Shown here piece after piece: positions 10,934 to 16,020 of a stretch of DNA of 64,000 nt; within the stretch, counting starts at the first letter, position 1; every line of letters starts with the position of its first letter. The notes beneath the pieces are model-generated. The model was not told where the DNA came from and made no database searches. It saw nothing but the letters and a program-made list of their open reading frames with translations. The DNA lies in assembly GCA_016201045.1 (NCBI GenBank), contig JACQDM010000005.1:1-64000 (forward strand), given 5' to 3'. Source of the stretch: Afipia sp. (GTDB taxonomy: Bacteria > Pseudomonadota > Alphaproteobacteria > Rhizobiales > Xanthobacteraceae). The translations under genes and the position numbers were made by a program.

Positions 10934-12343
10934 ATGAAGACCGGCAAAGACGTCCTGAAAGCTCTCAAGGACAACGACGTCAAATACGTCGACCTGCGTT
11001 TCACCGATCCGCGCGGCAAGTGGCAGCACGTCACCTTCGACGTCACGATGATCGACGACGATGTTTTCGCCGACGGCCTGATGTTCGACGGCTCGTCGAT
11101 CGCCGGCTGGAAAGCCATCAACGAATCCGACATGTGCCTGATGCCGGATCCCGTCACCGCGACCATCGATCCGTTCTTTGCTGAAACCACGATGGTCATC
11201 ACCTGCGACATTCTCGAACCGACCACCGGCGAGCCCTACAACCGCGACCCGCGCGGCATCGCCAAGAAGGCCGAAGCGATGGTGAAGTCGATGGGCGTCG
11301 GCGACAGCGTGTTCGTCGGCCCGGAAGCCGAGTTCTTCGTGTTCGACGATGTGCGCTTCCAGACCACGCCCTACAACACCGGCTTCAAGCTCGACTCCTC
11401 CGAACTGCCGATCAACTCCGACACAGAATATGAAGGCGGCAATCTCGGCCACCGCATCCGCACCAAGGCCGGCTACTTCCCGGTGCCGCCGCAGGACAGT
11501 GTGCAGGACATGCGCTCGGAGATGCTCGGCTCGATGGCCAAGATGGGCGTCAAAGTCGAGAAGCACCACCACGAGGTCGCTTCCGCCCAGCACGAACTCG
11601 GCATGAAGTTCGACACGCTGACCCACATGGCCGACCAGATGCAGATCTATAAATATTGCATCCATCAGGTCGCGCACATCTACGGCAAGACGGCGACGTT
11701 CATGCCGAAGCCGGTTTACGGCGACAACGGCTCGGGCATGCATGTGCACCAGTCGATCTGGAAGGACGGCAAGCCGGTGTTTGCCGGCAACAAATACGCC
11801 GATCTTTCAGAGACCTGCCTCCACTACATCGGCGGCATCATCAAGCACGCCAAGGCGATCAACGCCTTCACCAATCCGTCCACCAACTCCTACAAGCGTC
11901 TGGTGCCGGGTTATGAGGCGCCGGTGCTGCTCGCTTACTCTGCTCGTAACAGGTCTGCGTCATGCCGCATTCCGTTCACCACCAACCCGAAGGCCAAGCG
12001 CGTCGAAGTGCGTTTCCCCGATCCGATGGCAAACCCTTATCTCGGCTTCGCCGCGATGCTGATGGCGGGCCTCGACGGCATCAAGAACAAGATCGATCCG
12101 GGTCCGGCGATGGACAAGGACCTCTACGATCTGCCGAAGGAAGAGCTGAAGTCGATCCCGACCGTGTGCGGCTCGCTGCGCGAGGCATTGGAAAATCTCG
12201 ACAAGGACCGTGCGTTCCTCAAAAACGGCGGCGTGTTCGACGACGACTTCATCGACAGCTTCATCGAGCTGAAGATGACGGAAGTCGCGCGTTTCGAGAT
12301 GACGCCGCATCCGGTGGAATTCGAGATGTATTATTCGCAGTAA
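10934..12343 (+). CDS. glnA: Glutamine synthetase type I
   Basis: A 469-residue GSI that makes glutamine from glutamate, ammonia and ATP in a dodecamer. Visible signatures are DGSSIAGW (residues 54-61), the metal and ATP segments ([22 protein letters not shown]) and the arginine segment NRSASCRIP. The adenylylation site is Tyr398 in [10 protein letters not shown], so activity should be switched off by GlnE, as in GSI-beta enzymes. A good ribosome-binding site (AAAGGGG) precedes the ATG. A strong terminator follows, and beyond it the composition shifts to an AT-richer accessory patch. Confidence 0.98.
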
Positions 12344-12373
12344 GGTTTTCGCTGCGAGAGATATGAAATGCAG

Positions 12374-12403
12374 AAGCCGCCCAGAGATGGGCGGCTTTTT
12401 TTT
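12374..12403 (+). terminator. Strong terminator of glnA
   Basis: A 10-bp stem AAGCCGCCCA / TGGGCGGCTT with loop GAGA is followed by a run of eight T in total. The next ATG (tcmP) is only 15 bp beyond the T run, so tcmP has almost no room for a separate promoter. Confidence 0.92.
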
Positions 12404-12417
12404 AGAGAGAAATATAG

Positions 12418-13317
12418 ATGGCCAACGGTCACGAATTTGGTGGTCAACATACCGAACTGAAACTCTCAATTGTTGAGGGATACCTTCGAGCGTTTACAAC
12501 CGCGCTCCGGCCGCAGTTTAAGGAGCTTTGGTACATTGATGCGTTTGCCGGCACTGGAAACAGAACTGTCAGAAGCGTCTATGAAGGTAGTCAGCTCTTA
12601 GAACTACCTGTCGTAGAAAAGGTTGAAATACGCCGCGGATCAGCACAGATCGCTCTCGATATAAATCCTGCTTTTGATCTCATAGTTTTTATTGAGAAAA
12701 ACGCTGCCTATATCTCTGAACTAAATTCGTTATCAGCGAGATATGCAGGTCGCCGAGTCGTTGTTGCTCAGGATGACGCAAACGATGCTCTTAAATCACT
12801 CGTGCGAAATAATCACTGGGATGACAAGCGCGCGGTTGTGTTTCTCGATCCGTATGGAATGGAAGTAGAATGGTCGACGCTGGAAGCGCTCGCGTCAACA
12901 AAGGCTATAGACGTTTGGTTTTTGTTTTCGCTGGCTGGTCTTTTTCGTCAGGCGACACGGCGTCTAACGGATATTGATGAACACAAACGCGCAGCCCTAA
13001 CGCGAATGTTTGGCTCCGACAGTTGGGAAGGCGAACTATATCCCATCGATGATCGAACAGATTTGTTCGGGAAAGCGGTTGAACGAACGCGGGAATTAGA
13101 CCCTGCCGGCCTAGAGAAGTACGTAAAGAGTCGTCTAGAAACGATCTTTGCGCGCGTTCTTGATCCGCTTGCTCTTCCAGTTGACACGCGACCTCAGAGG
13201 TTTTCGCTTTTTCTTTGTATCTCTAATCCGACGCCAAAAGCCATCGGACTCGCGTCAAATATCGGAGAACACCTGCTCAATCCCAAAAGGCATCTCATCA
13301 TAGGTCCGTCCTCTTAA
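12418..13317 (+). CDS. tcmP: Three-Cys-motif partner protein, methyltransferase-like
   Basis: A 299-residue protein of the TcmP family, which is named for its repeated pairing with three-cysteine-motif (DUF5131) proteins, here encoded convergently. The N-terminus has the family pattern HTELKL (residues 11-16). A Rossmann methyltransferase layout follows: motif I DAFAGTG (41-47), an acidic motif II in FIEK (91-94), QDD around 118-120, and motif IV-like LDPYG (143-147). The C-terminal half is poorly conserved in the family. Composition is visibly AT-richer than that of its neighbours (AAA, TTA, ATA, AGA codons), suggesting horizontal acquisition. Substrate and reaction are unknown. Its last 63 bp overlap the end of the DUF5131 gene on the other strand. 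Confidence 0.85.
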   Translation: MANGHEFGGQHTELKLSIVEGYLRAFTTALRPQFKELWYIDAFAGTGNRTVRSVYEGSQLLELPVVEKVEIRRGSAQIALDINPAFDLIVFIEKNAAYISELNSLSARYAGRRVVVAQDDANDALKSLVRNNHWDDKRAVVFLDPYGMEVEWSTLEALASTKAIDVWFLFSLAGLFRQATRRLTDIDEHKRAALTRMFGSDSWEGELYPIDDRTDLFGKAVERTRELDPAGLEKYVKSRLETIFARVLDPLALPVDTRPQRFSLFLCISNPTPKAIGLASNIGEHLLNPKRHLIIGPSS

Positions 13318-14025
13318 GACCCTGCCTGCCGTTTTTTTGTTTTTTCCACCCCACTGCTTGAAAAAGAAAGCAGCACCAGAACGACGGCACATCGATTCAA
13401 TTTCATCCACCCACTCGCGCTCCATGTTACGAGAGCGAGGTCCACTTTCTCCACCAACGATTGCCCAATGAATTGCTCGCAAATCACCGGCCGCGACTGA
13501 GCCAAGGAGAGGCTCAAATGAAACAAACCTGACTGCCGCCGGCACATTCCGAAGATGGTCAAGGCGGTCCAAAACGCGCTCGTCTTCGACGCTCGTGCCC
13601 AGCCATACATTCCTGAGAACCGAAAAACTAGCGCTGCTGAGAATCTCAGCCATTCGTTCGGGACGTTTGGTGAGAATTTGATATGTGTGTCGTGGCGTAT
13701 CTCGCATAACATCCCACATTTGGCGGATGAAATTTGTGGGCACGTCCTCATGGAAAAGGTCCGACATTGAGTTGACGAAGACCTTGCGAGGTTTTGACCA
13801 TGAAGCGGGAATCGCAAGTGACTTTTCGTCAATGCGTATCTGCCCGGTCCATACAGCTCGACCGCCACTTTTTCGAGTCAAGCCGGAGTATTTCTCTGTT
13901 CCCATCGCTTCGAGCCTCGCGGCCATCCGCATGGCGTAACAATTGCTACAGCCAGCGGTAATGACGCTACAGCCTGCAACCGGATTCCAGGTTGCGTCGG
14001 TCCACTCGATCGATGTGTCGGCCAT
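13255..14025 (-). CDS. DUF5131 (Gp37/Gp68) three-Cys-motif protein
   Basis: A 256-residue protein of the phage Gp37/Gp68-like DUF5131 family. I start it at MADTSIEWTDATW because GGAG lies 7 bp upstream. The N-terminus has the cluster Cys19-x6-Cys26-x2-Cys29 (GCSVITAGCSNC), which resembles, but is not identical to, a radical-SAM iron-sulfur site (C-x3-C-x2-C). Further family motifs are VFVNSMSDLFHEDVP, ILTKRPERM, SFEPLLG, IVGGESGP, FFFKQWGG and the ending GRTYDEMP. The protein looks complete. It is convergent with tcmP, its usual partner. The biochemical role is unknown; a radical or metal-cluster chemistry acting with the TcmP methyltransferase-like protein is an inference. Confidence 0.85.
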   Translation of the reverse strand: MADTSIEWTDATWNPVAGCSVITAGCSNCYAMRMAARLEAMGTEKYSGLTRKSGGRAVWTGQIRIDEKSLAIPASWSKPRKVFVNSMSDLFHEDVPTNFIRQMWDVMRDTPRHTYQILTKRPERMAEILSSASFSVLRNVWLGTSVEDERVLDRLDHLRNVPAAVRFVSFEPLLGSVAAGDLRAIHWAIVGGESGPRSRNMEREWVDEIESMCRRSGAAFFFKQWGGKNKKTAGRVLRGRTYDEMPFGIEQVFSDI

Positions 14026-14060
14026 ATTTTCACTCCGATAACTCAACTCATCATAAGTAA

Positions 14061-14075
14061 GTCCAGACTCTGGAC
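14061..14075. promoter_or_regulatory. Operator-like palindrome upstream of the DUF5131 gene
   Basis: GTCCAGACTCTGGAC is a perfect inverted repeat with 7-bp arms. It sits 36 bp upstream of the DUF5131 ATG and 18 bp from the rightward -35 box at 14093, so a bound dimer could control both directions. No regulator gene is next to it. Confidence 0.6.
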
Positions 14076-14092
14076 AAATGATTAAATCCCTA

Positions 14093-14121
14093 TTGACCTT
14101 TCACATCTTCTGGATTATATT
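14093..14121 (+). promoter_or_regulatory. Sigma-70-type promoter pointing right
   Basis: TTGACC (14093-14098), a 17-bp spacer and TATATT (14116-14121) make a near-consensus promoter. The expected start is near 14128, and no convincing coding gene follows before 14842. On the opposite strand the same bases read TATAAT (14119-14114), a possible -10 box for the DUF5131 gene, but no matching -35 box was seen. Confidence 0.6.
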
Positions 14122-14127
14122 CCTATC

Positions 14128-14570
14128 CATCCCGTTCGCGAGGGGCGCTTCATGAGGCGTCTTGAAGTGGGGCGGGATGCGGTGCGCGCGCGTGAACTTC
14201 GCAAGTTCACGTCCGTGAGGTTGAGGGTCGCCGACCGGGCCAACTACGTGGCTCTGCCTTCGGTGGCTGCACGCGGTGCGGCTGAACGGCGGCGAAATCC
14301 GCCCGGATGAACGAACGTCGAAAGCATTCGGATCCCGCACCCGGAAGAGCGGTCCCTCAAACAGAAAAACCGCAGCAGTCAGGTTTGCGCAGACTGCGGA
14401 AACCTGTCTGCGCTTGGTGCGCCGAAAGGCGATGCGCTTCTTTCCCGCTTGGAGAGAAGCGAGCCAAGACCGTTGCGCCTTTCGGCGCGCCATGCCCCTC
14501 ACCTCGCATTCCGCGAGAACCCGACGCATGCGCGGAGAAAACGCTGTTTGAAAATTGAATCCGGAAGAGA
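14128..14570 (+). other. Hairpin-rich noncoding element (possible structured RNA)
   Basis: This 440-bp stretch has no convincing gene on either strand but a chain of inverted repeats: CATCCCG/CGGGATG (14128-14134 / 14173-14179); CGTGAACTT/AAGTTCACG with a 3-nt loop (14191-14211); AGGTTT/AAACCT and GCGCAGAC/GTCTGCGC interleaved (14381-14413); and a perfect 13-bp arm GCGCCGAAAGGCG/CGCCTTTCGGCGC (14419-14431 / 14476-14488) enclosing CGCTTCT/AGAAGCG. It begins where the promoter at 14093 should start transcription. No T-rich terminator was found at its end. It could be a structured RNA or a chromosomal repeat; I could not identify the family. Confidence 0.45.
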
Positions 14571-14594
14571 CAGGAGAATGCTTATCCAGCTTCC

Positions 14595-14713
14595 AATGTC
14601 GTCCCGGCGAAGGCCGGGACCCATACTCCCTGCGTTTTGAGAGTATTGTGGAACGCAGATCAAAGCGCAAAACAGAACACGGTGGTTATGGGTCCCCGCC
14701 TTCGCGGGGACGA
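14595..14713. repeat. REP/BIME-type extragenic palindrome
   Basis: GTCCCGGC-GAAG-GCCGGGAC followed by CCATA (from 14601) is mirrored by TATGGG-TCCCCGC-CTT-GCGGGGA-CGAC (about 14687-14713). This gives two small hairpins inside one large inverted repeat. The unit (GTCGTCCC ... GGGACCCATA) is a very common extragenic palindrome in Bradyrhizobium and relatives. The remaining 14714-14841 shows no gene and should hold the promoter of the next gene. Confidence 0.8.
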
Positions 14714-14841
14714 CCCGATAGAATCGATCACGATGACATGGAGCAATCACAATATGCGGCAATTGTGCCGCGCCATCTTCTCTTGATCCCACAGCATGTT
14801 TCGGCGAAGAGTGCTGCAACAAATTTTTAGAAGGAATAGTC

Positions 14842-16020
14842 GTGGCCGCACCCTCGAAAAACAGACTGGATGCCCGCAGCGATCTCGCCTGGTCCATTGC
14901 GATGGGCGGCATGGGCATCGTGCTGTTCGCCGCCCTGCTCGCGCTGTCGTGGTATTACGCGGCGACGATATTTTTGATTTTCGCGGGCATCTTGCTCGGC
15001 GTCGCGCTGAACGCGATGACCGAACTGCTCGGCCGCGTGTTGCCCTCTCCGCATTCGCTGCGGCTCGCCATCGTCTGCCTGTTGCTCGCGGGCGCGCTAT
15101 CGGGCGTGGTGTTTCTCGGCGGCTCCACCATCGCGCAGCAGGCCACGGTCCTGAGCAACACCATCAAAGGCCAGCTGGTCAACGTGAAGGCGTTCCTCGA
15201 ACAGCACGGCGTCGATACGAGCTTCCTCGAACTCGGAAGCCCTGCGGCGACGGCGACCGCTGCGGCGGCAGCCGCAAATACGGACACACCCTCCTCCACC
15301 ACGCCCGCTCCGGCGAAGACGCCCTCGCTCCCCAGCGCCGGCGCGATTGCATCGAGCGGCGGCGCCATCGTCAGCCAGACATTCAAGCTGCTTCTCGGCA
15401 CGCTGGGCGCCGTCGGCAATTTCTTCATCGTGCTGTTTTTGGGATTGTCGTTCGCCGCGCAGCCGAGCGTCTATCGCAACGGGCTGTTGCGCATCGCGCC
15501 CGCCAAACACCGGCTGTTCGTCACAACGATCGTCGATCGCGTCGGCTACACGCTGGAGCGCTGGCTGATCGCGCAGATGGTGACGATGTTCGCGGTGTTT
15601 CTCACCACATGGATCGGGCTTGCGGTCATCGGCATTCCAAGCTCGTTCATTCTCGGCATTCAGGCGGGCCTGCTCGCCTTCATCCCGACCATCGGCGCGC
15701 TGATCGGCGGGTTGATCGTGGTGCTCGCGAGCCTCGCTTCGGGTTGGGTCGCCGCCGCCAGCGCCGCGCTGCTGTTTCTCGGCGTGCATGCGCTCGAAAG
15801 CTATATCCTGACGCCGATCATCCAGCGTCAGGCGCTCGACATTCCGCCTGCGACATTGTTCGCGTTCCAGATCCTGCTCGGCATCGTGTTCGGGCTGTGG
15901 GGTTTGGCGCTGGCGTTGCCGCTGATGGCCATCGGCAAAGTCATTCTCGACGTGACGCGCAATGAAAAATTGCCGCCGATGAAAGCGCTCGCGCCGCCAA
16001 AACAAAAGGCGCTCCGATGA
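14842..16020 (+). CDS. AI-2E family (PerM-type) transporter
   Basis: A 392-residue inner-membrane protein starting at GTG with AGAAGGA upstream. There are two or three N-terminal transmembrane helices (about residues 15-85), a soluble Ala/Thr/Pro-rich loop (about 130-170), and a second bundle with the family's QMVTMFAVFLTTWIGLAVIG and IPTIGALIGGLIV patterns and HALESYILTPIIQ. Known members export varied substrates (AI-2 for TqsA, sodium/proton exchange for others), so the substrate cannot be told from sequence. It stands alone, and its 3' end overlaps the terminator of the convergent monooxygenase gene. Confidence 0.88.
   Translation: MAAPSKNRLDARSDLAWSIAMGGMGIVLFAALLALSWYYAATIFLIFAGILLGVALNAMTELLGRVLPSPHSLRLAIVCLLLAGALSGVVFLGGSTIAQQATVLSNTIKGQLVNVKAFLEQHGVDTSFLELGSPAATATAAAAAANTDTPSSTTPAPAKTPSLPSAGAIASSGGAIVSQTFKLLLGTLGAVGNFFIVLFLGLSFAAQPSVYRNGLLRIAPAKHRLFVTTIVDRVGYTLERWLIAQMVTMFAVFLTTWIGLAVIGIPSSFILGIQAGLLAFIPTIGALIGGLIVVLASLASGWVAAASAALLFLGVHALESYILTPIIQRQALDIPPATLFAFQILLGIVFGLWGLALALPLMAIGKVILDVTRNEKLPPMKALAPPKQKALR

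Follow-up and report, generated by a model that had tools for sequence, protein, structure and literature searches.

The window analysed here is the whole stretch formed by positions 1 to 64,000 of the forward strand of contig JACQDM010000005.1 (64,000 nucleotides, nt) from Afipia sp., and this work concerns a pair of genes located in it directly behind glnA, which encode a methyltransferase-like TcmP protein and a DUF5131 protein. Both open reading frames (ORFs) are intact and face each other tail to tail, with their 3' ends overlapping by 63 nt. Convergence and overlap were absent from a preliminary description of this DNA, which had presented the pair as a mobile two-gene system, perhaps involved in defence or in nucleic-acid modification. 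The features considered are the following (SAM, S-adenosylmethionine; aa, amino acids):

12418-13317, forward strand: TcmP, short form, 299 aa; ORF; Rossmann-fold methyltransferase, RlmJ/Trm1-like
13255-14025, reverse strand: DUF5131, 256 aa from ATG; ORF; radical-SAM-type, with a spore-photoproduct-lyase-like fold
13255-13317, no strand: overlap of the two 3' ends, 63 nt, from the ORF coordinates
12538-12558, forward strand: TcmP motif I, DAFAGTG, residues 41-47, presumed SAM-binding loop
12844-12858, forward strand: TcmP motif IV, LDPYG, residues 143-147, presumed catalytic motif
13939-13971, reverse strand: DUF5131 C19-x6-C26-x2-C29, presumed [4Fe-4S] ligands
12376-12403, forward strand: glnA terminator, left border of the insertion; by eye, a stem followed by a T run ending at 12403

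TcmP scored 181.1 bits against TIGR04474 (curated cut-off 53), a family that also calls for a gene neighbour with a three-cysteine motif, here the overlapping DUF5131, which in turn scored 321.1 bits against PF07505 (gathering cut-off 28.9). An alternative TTG start at 14046 would lengthen DUF5131 by 7 aa. The motifs previously proposed for both proteins were recovered at the same residues and are strongly conserved. In 70 TcmP sequences, D41, F43 and G45 of motif I and D144 and P145 of motif IV are invariant, and A44 and G47 are kept in at least 90%. DUF5131 has cysteines at positions 19, 26, 29 and 213, and the first three, in its N-terminal region, are invariant in 80 of 80 aligned relatives.

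Pairing, partner replacement and gene order

In a class sample of 385 genomes, where TcmP was counted if over the family cut-off, TcmP was detected in 29 genomes and DUF5131 in 54. All 29 TcmP genomes have DUF5131, a co-occurrence far beyond chance (hypergeometric P = 4.6e-29), in agreement with the recurrence of the pair claimed earlier; in 6 further genomes TcmP is matched only weakly, under the cut-off. Moreover, 29 of the 30 over-cut-off TcmP genes lie within 1 kilobase (kb) of DUF5131, and the remaining one starts 138 bases into its contig. Among genomic loci, taken as the best 80 of 532 relatives, i.e., those most similar to the window TcmP, DUF5131 is found at most 476 nt from TcmP in 78, the two exceptions being a locus with TcmP at the contig edge (L240) and one in which no DUF5131 was seen (L274). 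On viral contigs, DUF5131 lies within 304 nt of TcmP in 72 of 80 loci.

DUF5131 is freer than TcmP, as 25 of the 54 DUF5131 genomes are without an over-cut-off TcmP, and 44 of 80 viral DUF5131 loci match none of three TcmP profiles (46 with the first profile alone). In 50,697 phage records, the window DUF5131 finds 159 and the window TcmP finds 2, by a single-sequence search that is less sensitive than a profile. Both TcmP-matching phages are Synechococcus phages with the two genes side by side, overlapping in the one inspected. One viral contig carrying a convergent pair also has a second DUF5131-like ORF (L131:4596-5759).

This asymmetry bears on a toxin-antitoxin-like arrangement, in which TcmP would add a harmful base modification that DUF5131 would reverse by radical chemistry, solo phage DUF5131 being a counter-defence. 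It is what such an arrangement would produce, since TcmP is rarely without a radical-SAM-type neighbour whereas DUF5131 often lacks TcmP, and the reversal of a base lesion by spore photoproduct lyase offers a parallel. The same asymmetry is, nevertheless, also expected if TcmP merely needs the product of the radical enzyme, and the window subfamily is convergent rather than a co-directional operon (tandem pairs exist in the wider family); we regard this arrangement as improbable.

DUF5131 is missing from 8 viral TcmP loci. In 6 of them (L083, L086, L087, L088, L091 and L119), another protein of approximately 250-265 aa starts at the end of TcmP or at most 25 nt behind it, while, of the other two, L103 is truncated where its contig stops and L118 is without such a neighbour. 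Four of the six alternative partners were scanned, and all match the radical-SAM families Rv2578c, PA0069 and mobile pair B, with best E values of 1.2e-12 to 9.2e-14, below the family cut-offs. In addition, all six align with one another, and as a group they align with DUF5131 over 205 columns (probability 88%, E 2.8e-6), the three cysteines of DUF5131 falling onto a C-x3-C-x3-C of the alternative partners. TcmP is therefore accompanied by a radical-SAM-type protein that belongs to one or the other of two families, and the replacement of DUF5131 by the second one suggests that radical chemistry, rather than DUF5131 itself, is what TcmP needs.

The distances of TcmP and DUF5131 correlate in 148 pairs (Pearson 0.64, with 0 of 1000 permutations as high). 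Where DUF5131 identity exceeds 60%, its mean is 71% and that of the corresponding TcmPs is 46%; loci L090 and L261, e.g., share 84% identity in DUF5131 and 41% in TcmP. These values fit a conserved engine, DUF5131, with a changing and sometimes exchanged partner, TcmP.

Convergent pairs have overlapping ends in 119 of 119 cases (72 genomic, 47 viral), by 4-75 nt, a count to be read as a description and not as a test, since related pairs are not independent. Convergence was found in 72 of the 80 genomic loci most similar to the window TcmP; in a few genomic loci with two TcmPs, the counted neighbour is the long TcmP. In the class sample, where order was counted over the DUF5131 positions of TcmP-bearing genomes only, DUF5131 precedes TcmP in 20, TcmP precedes DUF5131 in 5 and 4 are convergent. 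As tandem pairs dominate the wider class (25 of 29, adjacent), overlapping tails mark the subfamily of the window only. A long and a short TcmP with one radical-SAM-type protein occur on A. tumefaciens pAt and S. meliloti pSymA, and in L086, L088, L273 and L280. In L086 (6843-7970) and L088 (6826-7965), the long TcmP, the short TcmP and the radical-SAM-type protein follow one another in the same direction, behind a small ORF that by eye resembles a helix-turn-helix regulator.

Folds and presumed chemistry

Whole-fold comparison placed DUF5131 nearest to spore photoproduct lyase, a DNA repair enzyme, with a weaker match to viperin. DUF5131 has the partial TIM-barrel fold of radical-SAM enzymes, and its three cysteines cluster, as had been anticipated, in a fold that in solved relatives carries an iron-sulfur cluster. 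As its CX6CX2C departs from the canonical CX3CX2C spacing, we term DUF5131 a non-canonical, radical-SAM-like protein and not a canonical member. Among solved structures, no radical-SAM chain was found for DUF5131 by sequence, even with a profile, and a single-sequence search of the same structures gave nothing useful for either protein; the assignment is thus based on the fold, the NCBIfam matches and the alternative TcmP partner. Regarding these matches, DUF5131 hits radical SAM mobile pair protein A (TIGR04471, E 1.5e-18) and the alternative partners hit mobile pair protein B (TIGR04470, E 1.5e-8 to 2e-13, 4 proteins), with scores so far below the family cut-offs that both are relatives and not members.

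The three cysteines could instead be zinc ligands that serve structure or the binding of nucleic acid, as CX6CX2C is unusual for radical-SAM proteins and sequence-level matches to a solved one are lacking. We consider this very improbable, given the whole-fold match to both spore photoproduct lyase and viperin, the match to mobile pair protein A, and the alignment to the alternative partners, which extends over the full length, covers the cysteines and concerns a family that in NCBIfam matches radical-SAM models exclusively.

The resemblance to known enzymes is partial. Spore photoproduct lyase, a radical-SAM DNA repair enzyme with a CX3CX2C motif, shares 14-15% identity with DUF5131 over the structural alignment, and viperin, an antiviral radical-SAM enzyme making modified nucleotides, differs from DUF5131 in its cysteine spacing; we know of no methyltransferase partner for either. 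TcmP, in agreement with its earlier description as methyltransferase-like, adopts a Rossmann methyltransferase fold with motifs I and IV and has a weak sequence match to RlmJ. Unlike RlmJ (23S rRNA adenine-N6) and Trm1 (tRNA guanine-N2 methyltransferase), TcmP has DPYG or DPFG and is sporadic, not housekeeping (29 of 385 genomes over the cut-off). Since the window TcmP carries DPYG, and not the DPPY given for RlmJ motif IV (PMC3814359), we did not file it as RlmJ. Ordinary housekeeping methylation was rejected on the basis of this sporadic occurrence and of the foreign codon usage described below.

Altogether, the enzyme classes of the two proteins, methyltransferase for TcmP and radical-SAM-like for DUF5131, are well supported, while the [4Fe-4S] cluster and the SAM chemistry are presumed. 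In the mechanism that we propose, DUF5131 would act as a non-canonical radical-SAM enzyme of the kind represented by spore photoproduct lyase, its three cysteines binding a [4Fe-4S] cluster that splits SAM and so starts a radical reaction. TcmP, as a SAM-dependent N-methyltransferase of the RlmJ/Trm1 type, would be the fast-changing, exchangeable member, methylating or positioning the target of the conserved DUF5131 engine. As both nearest folds act on nucleic acid, and considering some of the viral neighbours, nucleic acid is the likely substrate of the pair.

Insertion behind glnA and dispersed repeats

TcmP and DUF5131 are foreign in composition and inserted among housekeeping genes. Their GC contents are 0.483 and 0.524, respectively, against 0.593 for glnA and 0.640 for the AI-2E gene, which agrees with the AT-richer composition noted previously; at third codon positions (GC3) the values are 0.43 and 0.53 against 0.84 and 0.83. 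TcmP starts 14 nt past the T run of the glnA terminator, i.e., directly behind a housekeeping terminator, as had been proposed, and window alignments to the relatives L282, L283 and L302 stop at 12400-12402. Moreover, homology to 28 related loci is confined to 12417-14037, which corresponds to the two genes (two dispersed repeats aside) and supports the mobile two-gene system put forward in the preliminary description. A pattern scan of 12300-14850 gave promoters and terminators at chance level (2 vs 2.1 expected; 3 vs 3.1), and missed the glnA terminator visible by eye.

The closest relative, G393 (L282), matches the window through the terminator to 12400 and resumes from 14770, with approximately 1.2 kb in place of the pair. 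This insert looks like a HicA/HicB toxin-antitoxin pair and a small gene; in NCBIfam, the first HicA/HicB-like protein had no match, and the second had only matches below the cut-off, two of them to antitoxins. In G407, different ORFs stand behind glnA, two of which were scanned against NCBIfam without a match. Because these two genomes carry other ORFs there, the downstream side of the glnA terminator seems to accept varied small cargo. The AI-2E gene is found within 1.5 kb behind glnA in 8 of 23 same-genus glnA loci (L282-L304), and directly behind it, approximately 134-328 base pairs (bp) on, in 5 (L286, L290, L292, L303 and L304).

Just outside DUF5131 lies a dispersed repeat of up to approximately 400 bp (window 14091-14500), with 11 matches in its own genome, 8 of them of at least 168 nt (window copy included). 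A search of 41 related genomes, with its own among them, matched it in 24, and a single genome has as many as 26 matches. A promoter-like TTGACC-17-TATATT stands at its left end, such sites being at chance level in the scan. A common RNA fold was predicted for five copies (-146 kcal/mol); of its 106 pairs, 25 show changes of both partners in one copy or more (no control run), and no Rfam family matched up to E 1. The element may be a mobile repeat or represent a structured RNA. A 2016 paper (PMC5082802) mentions, around Br-REP2, a larger repeat of Bradyrhizobiaceae. Three of the 16 related loci L201-L216 have a copy, facing away, approximately 100 nt upstream of TcmP:

L204:9680-9892, repeat copy near TcmP
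L215:7327-7522, repeat copy near TcmP
L216:9812-9895, repeat copy near TcmP

Three of the four copies in the 274,645 bases of these loci are this near TcmP (approximately 1e-5 under random placement), and the cassette and the repeat may share borders. A second repeat, with inverted halves (window 14596-14714), is also found near glnA in L285, L289 and L294, and in L225; it looks like a REP-type palindrome.

Defence catalogue, prophages and the role of the pair

The pair is already catalogued as the candidate anti-phage system PDC-M41 of PADLOC, judging from the presence and adjacency of both component proteins rather than from the exact system rule. TcmP matches PDC-M41A (E 1.2e-78) and, more weakly, PDC-M30, and DUF5131 matches PDC-M41B (E 4e-106) and PDC-M30B (E 5.4e-98). 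PDC candidates were put forward by a 'guilt-by-embedding' survey, and for most of them experimental validation is still to come (PMC10855318 and PMC12988326). PDC-M41 and PDC-M30 are candidate entries without an attached mechanism. In the open-licence PubMed Central literature, none of the names PDC-M41, TIGR04474, TIGR04471 or radical-SAM mobile pair was found, nor were the folds assigned here, the replacement of DUF5131 by another radical-SAM-type family, the subfamily with overlapping tails or glnA as a landing place (points not each targeted separately). PDC-M30 was matched in two papers and DUF5131 (Gp37Gp68, PF07505) in one, and among the papers listed for TcmP two name the protein family.

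Neighbouring genes, called by a simple longest-ORF script (some spurious), were scanned with PADLOC at E 1e-8. The near set (the two genes closest to the pair on either side, with 149 of 291 proteins scanned, L201-L242) matched 43 families, many being type III methyltransferase models matched by one protein, and the far set (genes 7-10 kb away, 149 of 186 scanned after dropping 2 of 188, L201-L264) matched 127, with up to 6 members each. Two observations count against a defence role. Among the 25 commonest families listed, there is no defence-family excess beside the pair relative to genes more than 7 kb away, in a comparison of close relatives whose far set is not a neutral control. Furthermore, Pfam identified no phage or defence gene among 10 ORFs scanned on both sides of the pair in the window, the neighbours being housekeeping: trigger factor, NAD(P)H-hydrate repair enzyme, P-II protein, glutamine synthetase, AI-2E transporter, monooxygenase-type, diguanylate cyclase, enoyl-CoA hydratase and CoA-binding protein, with one ORF lacking a match.

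Two relatives do stand near defence-type helicases. On A. tumefaciens pAt, a DEAD/DEAH helicase and, behind it, DUF1837 stand two genes away from two TcmPs and a radical-SAM-type protein; we take this order of helicase and DUF1837 to be a Hachiman arrangement. On S. meliloti pSymA, the short TcmP is directly downstream, on the same strand, of an 845-aa ORF taken to be a putative Hna, an excerpt of PMC12445080 listing the TcmP SMa2243 alongside the abortive-infection helicase Hna, SMa2245. The earlier suggestion of defence can draw on the catalogue entry and these two relatives, but not on an enrichment next door in the comparison above.

As to prophages, 149 of the 256 neighbours of viral pairs were scanned, and 12 of these match phrog_4, a family of phage repressors; beside solo viral DUF5131, at most 2 of the 149 scanned (of 168) do so (Fisher P 0.011, neighbours not independent). 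Of the two associations raised in the preliminary description, with defence islands and with prophages, that with prophages is the better supported.

The main rival to a host defence is a phage fitness module, in which the pair, or DUF5131 alone, would modify or repair phage DNA while it replicates, e.g., to escape restriction, and reach chromosomes through prophages. It would account for the commonness of TcmP-less DUF5131 in viruses, for a nearest fold that is a DNA repair enzyme, and for the neighbours of solo viral DUF5131, which include DnaB-type helicases, DNA methyltransferases and Holliday junction resolvases (each 2-3 of 149), as well as for pairs near the Bet recombinase in a named Synechococcus phage and near RecT and an exonuclease-like gene in a plasmid-borne element. 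Nevertheless, the phrog_4 repressor is commoner beside pairs than beside solo DUF5131, a place beside a phage repressor being usual for genes expressed from a silent prophage, and the window pair sits among housekeeping genes; we find this rival rather unlikely.

Based on the observed pairing, folds, conserved residues, cassette borders and replacement of DUF5131 by another radical-SAM-type family, we consider it reasonably probable that TcmP and DUF5131 form a mobile two-enzyme module that modifies nucleic-acid bases, is often prophage-borne and probably serves defence. Such a module would arrive in genomes as a bare two-gene cassette, often via prophages, and would most likely help its carrier to resist other phages. 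Defence is the likeliest role because of the catalogue listing and the prophage placement, although, taken by itself, we hold it with slightly more doubt than belief. A bolder version is possible, if doubtful: a radical-SAM-powered nucleic-acid modification immune system, in which an exchangeable, fast-evolving methyltransferase would choose the target of a conserved lyase-type enzyme, the tail-to-tail overlap would make the two messages complementary, each limiting the other, and solo phage DUF5131 would be the phage's own modification or a counter-defence enzyme.

TcmP and DUF5131 are spread across bacteria and viruses under names that reflect only their pairing or an unknown function. A concrete chemical hypothesis, that of a radical-SAM enzyme and an N-methyltransferase acting on one nucleic-acid target, makes this catalogued defence candidate testable and, if true, radical chemistry on nucleic acid would join the conflict between bacteria and phages, beside the viperins that make modified nucleotides.
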